Both the position numbers and the translations under genes were made by a program. Under the pieces are notes generated by a model. The model did not search any database. It saw only the letters and a list, made by a program, of their open reading frames with translations, and was not told the origin of the DNA. Of a stretch of DNA of 54,570 bases, positions 43,599 through 47,969 are shown piece after piece. Position 1 is the stretch's first letter; every line of letters begins with the position of its first letter. This stretch comes from a virus: the IMG/VR virus record IMGVR_UViG_3300040811_001385, positions 1 through 54,570 of that record. One strand, 5' to 3'.

Positions 43599-44189
43599 AT
43601 GGCATCAATAGAAGATTTTATTGCAAACATTTCAAAATCTGGCCTTACTCAGGCAAATCGTTATGAACTTAGAATTAAACCACCGCCGAAGTCGTTTCTA
43701 ACAAATCCAGACAATTTATTAAAATTTCGTGTTCCATCAATTTCTTTGCCAGGGAAAACCATTTCAACAACGGAAACAAAAATTTATGGCCCTATAAGAA
43801 TGGCACCATACACAACTACATACGATCAATTGACATTTAGTATATATTTGAGCGATAACTTAAAAGAAAGAGATTGGTTTGAAGATTGGTTTCACCAAGT
43901 TATAGATTTTACTACACATAAAATTTCATATTATAACGACTATGTGGCACCACAGGCAGAGCTCATTACATATAATAAAAACGATGAGAGAACACACACT
44001 GTAACATTTGAGAATCTATATCCATTATCTATAGGCCCAGTTGAATATGCATATGCAAACGAAGAACCGGCGCAATGTCAGATTACGATGTTCTACAGAA
44101 AATATCGTTCTGAATATAGTAAAGAGGAGGCGAATAAACGTGTACAGCTTACTGTAACCGGCCCAGAGCTTACTGTAACCGGCCCATAA
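43599..44189 (+). CDS. Tail-tube-fold protein (gp19/gp54-like, 196 aa)
   Basis: The opening SGLTQANRYELRIKPP, the central FRVPSISLPGKTISTTETKIYGP, and later FTTHKISYYNDY and HTVTFENLYPLSIGPVEYAYANEEPAQCQITMFYRKY make up the tail-tube beta-barrel pattern. The length is near T4 gp19 (163 aa). Its location in the hub operon, not beside a sheath gene, makes a tube-initiator (gp54-like) role as likely as the major tube. Ribosome site AGGAGA overlaps the upstream end. The extreme C-terminus has a duplicated LTVTGP peptide from a 21-bp tandem repeat. Confidence 0.65.
   Translation: MASIEDFIANISKSGLTQANRYELRIKPPPKSFLTNPDNLLKFRVPSISLPGKTISTTETKIYGPIRMAPYTTTYDQLTFSIYLSDNLKERDWFEDWFHQVIDFTTHKISYYNDYVAPQAELITYNKNDERTHTVTFENLYPLSIGPVEYAYANEEPAQCQITMFYRKYRSEYSKEEANKRVQLTVTGPELTVTGP
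44146..44186 (+). repeat. 21-bp tandem duplication at the 3' end of the tube-like gene
   Basis: A 20-nt sequence is repeated exactly with a 21-bp period (44146-44165 and 44167-44186), encoding LTVTGPE then LTVTGP before the stop. The copies are identical, so the duplication is probably recent. Confidence 0.9.
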
Positions 44190-44219: not shown

Positions 44220-44942
44220 ATGTTACCTACAATTAATGCACCAACATATGATTTGACTATACCATCAACAAATGAAAGTGTAAAGTTTCGTCCATTTTTA
44301 GTCAAAGAAGAAAAAATTCTTCTGATGGCACAAGAAGGAGAAGAACTACAAGAAAAAATTGATGCGATAAAACAAATTATTGGAAACTGTTTAGTATCAG
44401 ATGTAGATGTTGATAAACTTTCTACATTTGATATTGAACACATTTTCATCAAACTTAGAAGTAAGTCTATCGGAAACGTAATTGGTTTGAGTTACAATCG
44501 GGAAGATTGTACAGAAGAAGGAGCGGGGCAGGGGGGCTGTCAAATTCCTTTCACATTAGACTTAGAAAAGGCGGAGATTGAAAATCAAGAAGGACACACC
44601 AATGAATTGAATCTAACGTCAGATATTAAAATTATTATGAAGTATCCAGATTTTAATATCTTAAATTCTGTATTAACTGCAGATAGTGTAGATGATGTAA
44701 TTGATGTTGTAGCTACTTGTATTGACATGATCGTTGATGGAAGTGAAGTATATAATGCGTCTGATTATTCAGAAAGTGAATTAAAAACTTTTGTTGAGAA
44801 TTTAACACAACAACAGTTTGAATCTATTAACAATTTTTTCAATACAATGCCAGAAACGGCGTGTGATGTAAATATTGTTTGTAGAAAATGTGGATGGAAA
44901 AAATCGATGAAAGTAAAAGGAATTACCGATTTTTTTTCCTAA
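44220..44942 (+). CDS. 26: Baseplate hub assembly protein gp26 (tail-chaperone-like)
   Basis: 240 aa, near T4 gp26 (208 aa). It begins LPTINAPTYDLTIPSTNESVKFRPFLVKEEKILLMA, the conserved T4_baseplate/gp26 opening, and ends with a zinc-ribbon-like CDVNIVCRKCGWKKSMKVKGITDFFS. GAAGAGG is the ribosome site. The last codons run through eight T (44930-44937) immediately before the stop, and gp51 lies in the -1 frame. Together with its place just before the tape measure, this suggests a lambda G/GT-like arrangement. Confidence 0.85.
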   Translation: MLPTINAPTYDLTIPSTNESVKFRPFLVKEEKILLMAQEGEELQEKIDAIKQIIGNCLVSDVDVDKLSTFDIEHIFIKLRSKSIGNVIGLSYNREDCTEEGAGQGGCQIPFTLDLEKAEIENQEGHTNELNLTSDIKIIMKYPDFNILNSVLTADSVDDVIDVVATCIDMIVDGSEVYNASDYSESELKTFVENLTQQQFESINNFFNTMPETACDVNIVCRKCGWKKSMKVKGITDFFS

Positions 44943-45124
44943 GTTTAAATCATGAGTCCCTTGCATCGATGTATCGAAATAATTTTGCGTTGATGCAGCA
45001 CCATAAATATAGTTTGAGTGAATTAGAAGATATGATACCGTGGGAAAGAGAGATATATTTAAATCTTTTGATAAACTATATTAAAGAAGAAGAAAAGCGT
45101 AGAAAAGACGCAATGAGGAGTTAA
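44888..45124 (+). CDS. 51: Baseplate hub assembly protein gp51, possibly made as a gp26-gp51 fusion
   Basis: The conserved part is FFLSLNHESLASMYRNNFALMQHHKYSLSELEDMIPWEREIYLNLLINYIKEEE, as in short gp51 proteins of marine T4-type phages. The frame overlaps gp26 by 55 bases. The first ATGs (44888, 44894) lie inside gp26 coding sequence with no ribosome site, and the next ATG in frame (about 44970) would delete conserved residues. Homology begins exactly where a -1 slip at 44930-44936 would enter this frame. I therefore give the open frame as listed, but translation by frameshift is at least as likely as independent initiation. Confidence 0.75.
   Translation: MWMEKIDESKRNYRFFFLSLNHESLASMYRNNFALMQHHKYSLSELEDMIPWEREIYLNLLINYIKEEEKRRKDAMRS
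44930..44936 (+). other. Candidate -1 ribosomal frameshift site (T TTT TTT)
   Basis: In the gp26 frame the codons are GAT TTT TTT TCC TAA, giving a U UUU UUU heptamer two codons before the stop. A -1 slip yields ITDFF-F-LSLNHES and continues in gp51. A possible 10-bp stem (44962-44971 with 44988-44997, two G-U pairs) lies 25 nt downstream, which is further than usual for a stimulator. Confidence 0.55.
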
Positions 45125-45125
45125 T

Positions 45126-45455
45126 ATGGAAGAAGAAATTAAAGCATCTGGACATCACCCTGCCGATACTAATGGAGATGGAAAGGTTTCAAAAGAAGAA
45201 GAAAAGATGTATCTTGAGTTTAAAAGAAAAGAACTAGAAGATGCTGATGCTCGCAGAGATGCAATGCGTCAAATGGCCTGGTTCTCTTTATTCGGTATGT
45301 TACTCTATCCATTCGCAGTAGTGATTGCAGTAGTTGCAGGATTGGATCAAGCATCAAAGATTCTGGGTGACATGGCGGCAACATACTTCGTTTCTGTCGC
45401 TGCAATTGTGGCCGCATTCTTTGCGGGCAACGCATATTCAGATAAGAAGAAGTAA
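45126..45455 (+). CDS. EF-hand protein with two membrane segments (109 aa)
   Basis: Residues 14-25 (DTNGDGKVSKEE) form a canonical EF-hand loop with Asp/Asn/Asp at positions 1, 3 and 5 and Glu at 12. A charged helix follows, then two hydrophobic segments at about 48-72 and 80-103, and a short Lys tail. It lies between gp51 and the tape-measure candidate with a one-base gap and a GAGGAG ribosome site, so it is co-translated with tail-core proteins. Options include an ejected membrane protein that works with the tape measure, or a holin-like protein. Only the motif and topology are visible; the role is unknown. Confidence 0.75.
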   Translation: MEEEIKASGHHPADTNGDGKVSKEEEKMYLEFKRKELEDADARRDAMRQMAWFSLFGMLLYPFAVVIAVVAGLDQASKILGDMAATYFVSVAAIVAAFFAGNAYSDKKK

Positions 45456-45458
45456 TAA

Positions 45459-47969
45459 ATGGCAAGTCCTGATCTAAAAGCGGTAACAGAAAAACTTATC
45501 AGACAAAACCAAGAGGAATTGTCTGCTTCATTTAGCGCTGCAACCGACCAGTTGCAGTCAGCCGCAGCTAGACAGGCCCTTGTAGAAGTTGCTGATATTC
45601 TTGGACAACAAGAAGGTATATCTGTAAAAGAATTTAAAGAAACCAAAAAGAAGATAGACCTTCTTGATGCCGATTTGGCACAACTAGAGGGTGCTACTGA
45701 CCAAGAAAAGAAAGCACTTCAAGAGATATTAAGAGCATCTCAAGAAAGTATCAAACAAAACACTACATTTAAAAAATCTATTGGTGATCTTGCAACAAAG
45801 ACAGTAGAAGGTTCAATTAGTGGAATTGGTGGAGTTATTACAGGTGCATTGAGTGGCAGTCCACTATTAGCATTTGGTGCATCATTTGTTGGTGACAGAA
45901 TTAAACAATTCAGAGAAACAAGTAAGGCAAATAAAGCAGAGGAAGAAGAGAGACAAAGAAGAATTGTAGAACAGAAAAAAATTGAAGAAGAAGAATTTTC
46001 TGTTTTAAGAACACAAATATCAAATGAAGAAGCAATCTCAAGAGCAAATATAACATCAGAAGAAGTAGCAGCACAAGCACTTGCAAGAGGTATTACTGAA
46101 CAAGAAGTTATTGACGAACAGAAAAATGCTATCATTCGTCAGGCAAAAGCAGCAAAAGAAGCAGAAGACGCAAACAAGGCAAGAGAAGATGAAATTGAGT
46201 CCATTAGAAAAAGTTATGGACTTGATATGTCAGAATCTCCAGTATCTGTTCCACAACCAGAAACCTCAGTATCAGACGATAGAGAAAATATTACAGTACC
46301 ATCTCCGTCCGAAAATACTCAAAGTTTATCTACCGATGAAACATCTACTCCAAGTGAAGTTTCTCAAATCACAGCAACTAAGTTGGATGAAGTAAAAGAG
46401 CAACTTGGCGAAAACAGTCCATATCTAGAAGAAGTAGTAAATCTTCTAAAATTCTTGCAGGACACTTCTGACAATCCATCTCCATTAGATTTGGAAAATC
46501 AAAGAGAAAATAATAGAGAAAGAAAACTTGAACAAGAGTTAGAGAAAACGCAAATCAAACTTCTTGAACAGATTGTAGAGAACACTGGAAACTTAGATGA
46601 AATCTCAGGTGAAGGTGGCGGACTTTTAGATGGTTTATTGGGTGGACTTGGTGGACTTGGTGGCGGACTATTAGGTGGCGGTGGTAGAGGTGGAATTAGA
46701 GGCGCAATCTCAAGAGCTGGTGGAACAGTAAGAGGTGGTCTAGGAAGAGTTGGTTCAGTAGCAAATAGAGCAAGCGGTGGTAGATTTGGTAGACTTGGTA
46801 ATCTAATAAGGAATGCAGGATCTGGAATTACAGGAAGAGCAAGAAGTCTAGTCGGTGGTGGACTGAATGTCGCAAGAGGTGCATTGGGGGGAATTAAAAA
46901 CATTGGATTGAATGCACTGAAACTTGGCGGCGGGGCAGTAGCAGGACTTGCTGCAACTGGAGCGGTGAAAACAGCAAGCGCTGCAAGTAATGTTGCGAGT
47001 AATGTAAAAAATACAATGACTTCGATGCCTGATAGAATAAAAGGTGTTGGTAGTGCAATACCCGACAAACTTCCAAAAACGCCAAGTATTTCAGTGCCCC
47101 CAAAAATGCCATCAGTAATGGATAAAATAACAGCACCAGCAAAAGGAGTTGGTGCGAAAATAAGTGGACTTGCATCTAAAGTAACTGGAAAGGGCGCCGC
47201 AAGTGTCGCCACAAAGGGCGCCGCAACAGCTGGTAAGGGACTTGGGAAATCTTTATTGAAAAAAATCCCTGGCGTTGGTTTAATTGCAGGATTGGGATTT
47301 GGTGCTCAAAGAGCATTTGGTGGAGACTTCTCTGGTGCAGGCCTAGAGGTACTTTCTGGACTTACTAGTATAATACCAGGCCTTGGTACTGCTGCGTCAA
47401 CAGCGATTGATGCTGGACTCATGGCGAAGGATATGGGTGCATTTGATGGTGAAGAAGGTGCAATCGCACCAGAGATTTCTCCAGAAGATCAAAAAGCAGA
47501 ACTTCAGTCAAAAATTGCAGAGGCAAAAGACAGAATTACCAGAAGTGAAGGTGGTGAAAATGTTTATTGGGGTAGAGATTCTAAAGGTAGAGAAGAAGAT
47601 ACAGCAGAAATAGAAAAACTACAAGCTGAATTGGACAAATTGAATATCACTCCAAAAGAAGAAAATGCATTTGCGAATCCATCTGCACAAGAAATGATGG
47701 ATTTTGATTCTGGTGTTTCTGCACAACAATCATTCTCAAGTGATGTTCCTAACAAAAAATTAGAAGCGTCTAATATGATGGACAATGCTGCTATGGATAA
47801 ATCTACAGCAGATGCGAAACAGGCCGCAAATATTATTAATGCACCACAACAAAACACTGTGAATAATGTAACTAATAATTCGACAATTATGCCTAAACAA
47901 AAACCAGAAGTAAGACATACTGATGGTGCTGTAAGAGATGCTAGATTATCACTAGTAGGTGCATGGTAG
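45459..47969 (+). CDS. 29: Probable tape measure/hub protein, gp29-like (836 aa)
   Basis: The layout fits a tape measure: N-terminal helical region (1-110); a hydrophobic Gly-rich stretch (SGIGGVITGALSGSPLLAFGAS, about 115-140); a highly charged coiled coil (about 150-250); Ser/Thr linker; a Gly-rich low-complexity segment (about 385-480); Ala/Gly-rich hydrophobic helices (about 500-660); and a compact C-terminus (NNVTNNSTIMPKQKPE). It follows gp26 and gp51, as gp29 does in the T4 hub cluster. T4 gp29 is 590 aa; if length sets tail length, this tail would be longer. No peptidase motif is obvious. Confidence 0.65.
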   Translation: MASPDLKAVTEKLIRQNQEELSASFSAATDQLQSAAARQALVEVADILGQQEGISVKEFKETKKKIDLLDADLAQLEGATDQEKKALQEILRASQESIKQNTTFKKSIGDLATKTVEGSISGIGGVITGALSGSPLLAFGASFVGDRIKQFRETSKANKAEEEERQRRIVEQKKIEEEEFSVLRTQISNEEAISRANITSEEVAAQALARGITEQEVIDEQKNAIIRQAKAAKEAEDANKAREDEIESIRKSYGLDMSESPVSVPQPETSVSDDRENITVPSPSENTQSLSTDETSTPSEVSQITATKLDEVKEQLGENSPYLEEVVNLLKFLQDTSDNPSPLDLENQRENNRERKLEQELEKTQIKLLEQIVENTGNLDEISGEGGGLLDGLLGGLGGLGGGLLGGGGRGGIRGAISRAGGTVRGGLGRVGSVANRASGGRFGRLGNLIRNAGSGITGRARSLVGGGLNVARGALGGIKNIGLNALKLGGGAVAGLAATGAVKTASAASNVASNVKNTMTSMPDRIKGVGSAIPDKLPKTPSISVPPKMPSVMDKITAPAKGVGAKISGLASKVTGKGAASVATKGAATAGKGLGKSLLKKIPGVGLIAGLGFGAQRAFGGDFSGAGLEVLSGLTSIIPGLGTAASTAIDAGLMAKDMGAFDGEEGAIAPEISPEDQKAELQSKIAEAKDRITRSEGGENVYWGRDSKGREEDTAEIEKLQAELDKLNITPKEENAFANPSAQEMMDFDSGVSAQQSFSSDVPNKKLEASNMMDNAAMDKSTADAKQAANIINAPQQNTVNNVTNNSTIMPKQKPEVRHTDGAVRDARLSLVGAW

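Follow-up and report, generated by a model that had tools for sequence, protein, structure and literature searches.

A conserved poly-T slip site probably joins gp26 and gp51 into a two-length tail assembly chaperone in an uncultured marine T4-type phage

Introduction

In phage lambda, ribosomes slip by −1 shortly before the short gene of the G/GT pair ends, 5' of the tape measure gene. This provides a well-known parallel to the locus described here, and excerpts of PMC5009743 describe chaperone roles for G/GT that involve the tape measure and the tube subunits. Poly-T slippery sequences are known −1 signals in the genes for the short tail assembly chaperone (TAC-N) of T4-like phages, according to excerpts of PMC12846349, which cites Vladimirov, Gautam and Davidson (2022), and some T4-like phages instead have a short gene alongside a fused one, according to excerpts of PMC10885494, which cites the same work. 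As relayed by these citing papers, that work (Virology 566:9–15) deals with the same kind of gene and makes the same proposal, a TAC-N and a TAC-NC product arising through poly-T −1 frameshifting. The signal of Escherichia coli dnaX, as excerpted in PMC3711429, is alike in its composition, in that a slippery heptamer is combined with an upstream Shine-Dalgarno (SD)-like element and, as predicted for some of the phage lineages below, a downstream hairpin; it is unrelated, with another heptamer and in another gene. In cyanophages, gp51 was reported to have about 20% of the usual gp51 length, for which the excerpted text of that paper offers no explanation (Sullivan et al., 2010; PMC3037559).

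The locus studied here lies in a stretch of 54,570 bases, referred to in its entirety as the window, from an uncultured marine virus of bacteria, a T4-type phage. Its gp26/gp51 gene is larger than lambda G/GT and differs from it in using U UUU UUY as the slip site. Vladimirov and colleagues reportedly found frameshifting to be conserved in several T4-like groups, with T4 itself said to use genes 26 and 51; the phage considered here differs from theirs in being uncultured. The original prediction for this locus held that gp26 and gp51 may be joined by a −1 ribosomal frameshift, and guessed that such a frameshift was probably new. The guess of novelty fails, as frameshifted chaperones of T4-like phages had already been proposed (Vladimirov et al., 2022, as relayed by citing papers). 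The frameshift is supported by a conserved slip site, a conserved frame offset and a conserved lack of a start, together with a colinear gp51, and we put the probability at roughly 0.93 that gp26 and gp51 constitute a single tail assembly chaperone gene expressed in two lengths through a −1 ribosomal slip.

Results

The slip site in the window

The elements of the locus between 44220 and 47969 are all on the plus strand. The gp26 gene (44220–44942, 240 aa), annotated elsewhere as a baseplate hub subunit, matches Pfam T4_baseplate (1.8e-58) and PHROG 150 (3.9e-64, covering profile positions 7–232). Its 3' end reads GAT TTT TTT TCC TAA, as had been claimed, and this places U UUU UUU in the gp26 phase at 44930–44936, inside a run of eight Ts (44930–44937) and 3 nt ahead of the zero-frame stop TAA (44940–44942). 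The gp51-like frame, which contains an ATG at 44888 and ends with a stop at 45122–45124, is offset by −1 relative to gp26, again in agreement with the claim. A ribosome slipping on the heptamer would enter the −1 frame extension (TAC-C, gp51; 44936–45124), and the predicted frameshift product, built from the sequence as join(44220..44936,44936..45124), has 301 aa. The T8 run is the sole run of T or A of at least eight in the 54,570-base window. TTTTTTY occurs in frame eight times among the 17,859 codons of the ORFs of at least 100 aa in the window (both strands, overlaps counted), and no copy other than the one at the slip site comes as close as 100 nt to the stop of the ORF that holds it. A second in-frame TTTTTTC within gp26 (44834–44840) is located at a conserved FFxTMP motif and is probably coincidental. 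Since this motif of the same gp26 genes carries the heptamer in just 9 of 48 relatives, a pair of Phe residues alone does not explain the heptamer at the slip site.

Conservation of the heptamer and of the −1 frame

Relatives were gathered by eight IMG/VR scans and by 30 retrievals of public phage records, 20 of which have adjacent gp26/gp51 outside the Ackermannviridae type; these 20 were hand-picked among the matches listed (60 each of 1192, 903 and 572 matching records). Two of the eight scans, run with distant gp26 queries, retrieved none. The contig and record sets overlap, HTVC008M and CC2 being in both, and the contig sets contain near-identical members. Outside the Ackermannviridae type, 231 of 232 intact contigs had U UUU UUN near the gp26 end, with C or U as the last base in 230. 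It stood in the gp26 phase in 167 of 168 intact IMG/VR loci, the window included (122 UUC, 44 UUU and one UUA): 79/79 in group A, to which the window belongs, 9/10 in group B and 79/79 in group C, the sole miss being a group B locus (L090) whose gp26 has an early stop. A later IMG/VR scan yielded the heptamer in 60/60 intact loci, all with UUC, and four further contigs yielded it in 4/4. The fetched records outside the Ackermannviridae type had it in 20/20, 19 of them with UUC or UUU, and the slip site of Sinorhizobium phiM9 is UUUUUUG; the hosts of heptamer-bearing records include Pelagibacter, Methylophilales, Caulobacter, Sinorhizobium, Vibrio, Aeromonas and a sulfate reducer. The gp51 stretch is in the −1 frame in all 20 of these records, and also in every one of the 194 loci (out of 199) in which it was located.

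None of 21 Ackermannviridae-type and similar relatives has the heptamer, though gp51 is also in the −1 frame there (for L203 the last 33 nt were examined). In the Ackermannviridae type (L085, L087, L197, L199, L203 and L179–L193) no X XXY YYZ heptamer is found at the gp26 end, and the slip place carries sequences like ATTTTC or CTTTTTC; a TAATG stop-start overlap was seen in L087 and L199.

For comparisons among divergent junctions, 71 representatives that are <80% identical over the junction were drawn from the 172 of 199 loci that have TTTTTT at the site and enough flank. A second sample of 29 junctions came from the 60 intact loci among 61, with the same requirement for TTTTTT and flank and with <80% identity to the first set. 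As the representatives were chosen for TTTTTT, heptamer frequencies are taken solely from the unselected counts above, and the second sample, which came from a cyanophage query, tests the cyanophage side and not the clade of the window. A comparison of junctions across relatives had been proposed beforehand as a check on the frameshift; in the relatives gathered here the slip site and the −1 offset are conserved, and so, for the most part, is the missing upstream start.

Does gp51 have a start of its own?

It had been claimed that gp51 has neither a ribosome site nor a suitable start codon. The first part stands, as no ribosome site is visible in the sequence before the ATGs that the −1 frame of the window contains at 44888 and 44894; the second part needs qualification, since these two ATGs exist, but they are not conserved, and 65 of the 71 divergent representatives have no ATG, GTG or TTG 5' of the heptamer in the −1 frame. 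An in-frame ATG is also absent from the first 60 nt in 33 of the 71. In a rival explanation, gp51 is a separate short protein, made either from its own start, for example at one of these ATGs, or by ribosomes that re-initiate once gp26 has ended. It could draw on the two ATGs and on public annotation: 14 of 18 annotated heptamer records give gp51 its own CDS, 4 annotate no gp51 and none has a join. It could also draw on a −1-frame ATG that overlaps the gp26 stop (TAATG or TGATG) in 6 of 20 records (F86, YB07, phiM7, Cr30, phiM9 and ValKK3), 4 of 71 divergent junctions and 3 of 168 contigs. This overlap is absent from the window, from the 60 later contigs and from most relatives, the annotated gp51 starts are placed at differing sites from record to record, and the fused form is known as a single protein in T4-type phages; together with the lack of a visible ribosome site before 44888 and of an upstream start in the 65 of 71 relatives, these observations make a separate gp51 highly improbable. 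Conservation leads us to reject it for the window, and it survives for the 6 of 20 records with the overlap, in which re-initiation could yield free gp51 instead of or beside frameshifting. A stop-start overlap and a frameshift could coexist in some phages; L194, L195, L273, L275, L276 and L278 carry the heptamer plus an overlapping TAATG or TGATG and may make both fused and free gp51. In the records of ACG-2014d (L269), ACG-2014j (L270), S-CAM1 (L271) and CC2 (L196), the gp51 stretch is left without an annotated gene.

The fused product compared with full-length gp51

The −1 piece matches PHROG 634 (hub assembly catalyst; 1.1e-26) from its residue 2 onward, which bears out the claim that gp51 homology begins exactly at the slip site. 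It also matches PHROG 150 at positions 231–277 (4.2e-7), directly past the part covered by gp26. Of the aligned gp51 pieces, 33 of 34 match PHROG 150; fused members or joined translations may accordingly be part of this profile, which is that of the gp26 family.

In RB51, a phage of the T4 type, gene 51 is a 250-aa gene that is divergent from gene 26. A profile of the 71 frameshift products aligned with RB51 gp51 over columns 24–290 and residues 12–244 (E 5.8e-12), and the alignment is gapless at the slip point. The two halves were also matched individually: the gp26 part alone to the N-terminal part of RB51 gp51 (5.7e-7) and the extension alone to its C-terminus (2.6e-5), the extension having no match to RB51 gp26 (0.23), which is itself homologous to gp26 of the window. 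The same profile also spanned full-length gp51 of phage 31 (4.9e-17) and of KP27 (6.3e-10). It aligned likewise with gp51 as annotated in ZZ1, whose 191 aa lack the N-terminal part (1.6e-9). When the four gp51 proteins were pooled as a profile the value was 5.8e-21, and the best among 20 control shuffles of RB51 gp51 was 0.005. Sequence homology to T4-type gp26 and gp51 is established for the window pair, and on these alignments its predicted frameshift product runs colinear with full-length gp51 of the T4-type phages that encode the latter as a separate gene. RB51, phage 31, KP27 and ZZ1 thus have long proteins homologous to the product predicted here, but differ in that the long form is a gene of its own; in RB51, phage 31 and ZZ1, where gp51 is separate, the last 17 codons of gp26 contain no heptamer. 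The long gene 51 of Klebsiella phage KP27 (L281) lies directly 5' of gene 26 on the same strand, whereas the genes are divergent in RB51, phage 31 and ZZ1. Cyanophage gp51 would have its stub-like length because the rest of the protein is gp26.

A frameshift that is real but mainly regulatory or incidental, with a fused protein that is no chaperone, might be read from the model of the 64-aa extension, which by itself had no significant structural match in BFVD. Such a reading is at odds with the strong amino-acid conservation of the extension and with the homology that links the extension to the C-terminal end of gp51, the annotated hub assembly catalyst, and we hold it to be very unlikely.

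Chaperone identity of gp26

The AlphaFold model of gp26 has a pLDDT of 90.7. The best PDB match of its residues ~1–84 was the HK97 tail assembly chaperone 2ob9, with Z 7.9 and an rmsd of 3.7 over 83 residues in VIA-align, a second look at the PDB list of Foldseek in which Z <8 can reflect a common arrangement. The next matches of this N-domain were 3fgx (Z 7.6), YqbN 3klu (6.9) and 5ir0 (4.8), with rank 5 at Z 3.0. The Foldseek E-values against the PDB are not significant (E 0.66 for the best TAC row), so the structural match is supportive, short of proof; a sequence search of the PDB gave nothing significant. A chaperone-like fold of the gp26 N-terminus is supported by these models. The entry 5ir0 is ORF19 of a Vibrio cholerae PICI-like element, a possible link of a satellite protein to tail chaperones.

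Downstream of the pair, a 109-aa ORF (45126–45455) is followed by a putative tape measure gene (45459–47969, 836 aa), which is the expected client of the chaperone. The latter was assigned by its position and length and by HTVC008M, where the gene at this place is annotated as putative tail tape measure; it has no Pfam match. An ORF similar in size to the 109-aa one occurs at that place in HTVC008M, and the ORF in the window has a weak EF-hand-like match under the Pfam cut-off. The tail-tube-like ORF terminates in a short tandem repeat, LTVTGPELTVTGP (44148–44186). The window has the order chaperone, small ORF and putative tape measure, in which two overlapping frames offset by −1, the short one first, lie 5' of the putative tape measure gene. 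Given this order and the chaperone-like fold, the pair is best read as a chaperone of two lengths, like lambda G/GT, and the analogy drawn in the original prediction is upheld. The conserved slip site, the colinearity with gp51 and the fold match to the HK97 chaperone lead us to view gp26 as TAC-N and gp26-gp51 as TAC-NC.

An upstream Shine-Dalgarno-like element

An SD-like element is located ~8–10 nt 5' of the heptamer, mostly as GAGGG in the relatives and as AAGGA (44917–44921, 8 nt 5' of the heptamer) in the window. Codon choice points to its selection: among the 71 representatives, 37 of the 48 Glu codons that stand 12–14 nt 5' of the heptamer are GAG, compared with 65 of the 233 in other Glu-Gly pairs (p 2e-12) and with a GAG share of 25% of the Glu codons elsewhere in gp26; in the second sample it is GAG in 19 of 29, against 26% (p 1e-5). 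Predicted pairing with the 16S anti-SD sequence peaks at the element, with a mean best value of −6.82 kcal/mol over the 71 representatives. Synonymous shuffles give −5.17 ± 0.18 kcal/mol (the lowest of 200 means being −5.62), and other gp26 stretches give −2.0. On these values, conserved amino acids account for much of the pairing, and codon choice for what exceeds the shuffles. AAGGA in the window, at −5.6 against a null of −4.8 kcal/mol, is moderate and not exceptional. The AAGGA/GAGGG element is a possible upstream stimulator of frameshifting. Excerpts of the open-licence PMC literature discuss SD stimulation generally, and an SD-like element at the slip site of these phages was not found in them.

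An element of this kind and a heptamer in codon phase are features of ribosomal slipping, and speak against the alternative that RNA polymerase slips on the T8 run, by which part of the mRNAs would shift frame and encode the fused protein. Transcriptional slippage gains from T8 being the only T or A run of such length in the window. Six Ts are, nonetheless, too short for efficient polymerase slippage, and 57 of the 71 divergent relatives have TTTTTTC, with six Ts only; we disfavor it as a general mechanism and consider it quite improbable. The last alternative supposes that sequencing or assembly introduced an indel into the T-run, with gp26-gp51 continuous in the real phage; it appeals to the error-proneness of homopolymers and is refuted by the conserved pattern, the −1 phase being the same in all 194 gp51-positive loci and also in isolate genomes with just six Ts, so that its probability is negligible.

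Downstream hairpins

The downstream stem, reported in the original prediction as 10 bp at a distance of 25 nt, proved to be strong, but it has 13 bp (44961–44973 paired with 44986–44998) and begins 24 nt past the heptamer. The 69-nt fold at this stem-loop (44961–44998) has −16.7 kcal/mol and a z of −3.56, and 0.8% of synonymous shuffles fold equally well. Among 20 distinct junctions of the clade of the window, the full set of 18 pairs is present in L002 and L007, which are near-identical, and the remaining 18 junctions retain 8–13 pairs. As a conserved stimulator the stem was thus rejected, being intact just in near-identical relatives; it may be a local stimulator. The conserved element lies upstream of the slip site, where the original prediction had placed none.

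In the cyanophage-like clade, the stretch from +9 to +54 folds with a mean z of −2.4 ± 0.2 against synonymous shuffles (26 representatives), compared with 0.0 ± 0.2 (+60 to +120) and −0.8 ± 0.2 (+90 to +150) in control stretches, and the later sample gave −1.6 ± 0.3 vs −0.5 ± 0.2 in the control stretch. A 5-bp hairpin in 27 sequences shows changes on both sides in all five pairs, with 83.7% of cells paired, and 0 of 500 shuffles reached its covariation score, although relatedness can inflate this measure; having been picked after the same group of sequences was viewed, this hairpin does not count as an independent test. Two ideal hairpin shapes account for 24 of the 56 cyanophage-like sequences. 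The mixed group of 31 has a mean z of −0.9 ± 0.3, other lineages having different hairpins or none, and the clade of the window (mean z −0.4 ± 0.5, 10 representatives) has no conserved downstream hairpin. RNAalifold returned no structure across whole clades, and Rfam gave nothing above the gathering score. Judged by these predicted folds, the hairpins differ from lineage to lineage. Clade-specific hairpins of these phages were not found in excerpts of the open-licence PMC literature.

Discussion

The slip site, its phase, its conservation and the homology of the fused product are read directly from the genomes compared here, and from them we infer the slipping itself and its rate. The majority of ribosomes would end at 44940 after gp26 and thereby release TAC-N. 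A minority would slip back by one base on U UUU UUU, where two tRNA-Phe would re-pair. Pairing of AAGGA/GAGGG with the 16S rRNA may aid this step, as may a downstream hairpin in some lineages. These ribosomes would then read onward in the −1 frame and produce a TAC-NC of 301 aa. If lambda gpG/gpGT is a guide, TAC-N would bind the product of the tape measure gene, the second gene downstream, and TAC-C would recruit the tail tube subunits. Several observations are counterpoints to a frameshift: the upstream element of the window is ordinary, the hairpin is not conserved in its clade and the Ackermannviridae type is without the heptamer. In E. coli, furthermore, slipping is weaker on U UUU UUU than on A AAA AAG, according to excerpts of PMC5009743.

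The mechanism is very likely, and most of its novelty is gone. New, as far as checked, are a survey of this breadth, the element 5' of the slip site, the hairpins specific to lineages and the finding that gp26 matches a known chaperone in structure; no paper on frameshifting in cyanophages or Kyanoviridae was found by title in the open-licence PMC literature. We lean slightly toward a broader proposal, namely that marine and other T4-type phages share a cassette composed of U UUU UUY, an SD-like sequence kept by codon choice 8–10 nt upstream and hairpins rebuilt from lineage to lineage.

The gp26/gp51 pair is probably misannotated in public records, with a join in 0 of the 18 annotated records examined, and the labels baseplate hub subunit and hub assembly catalyst would conceal a tail assembly chaperone. 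The upstream element offers a simple, testable handle on the balance of the two chaperone lengths. If the proposal of a shared cassette is true, the cassette would be an SD-tuned switch for the TAC-N:TAC-NC ratio, from which the T4 group would have escaped by means of a separate gene for the long form.
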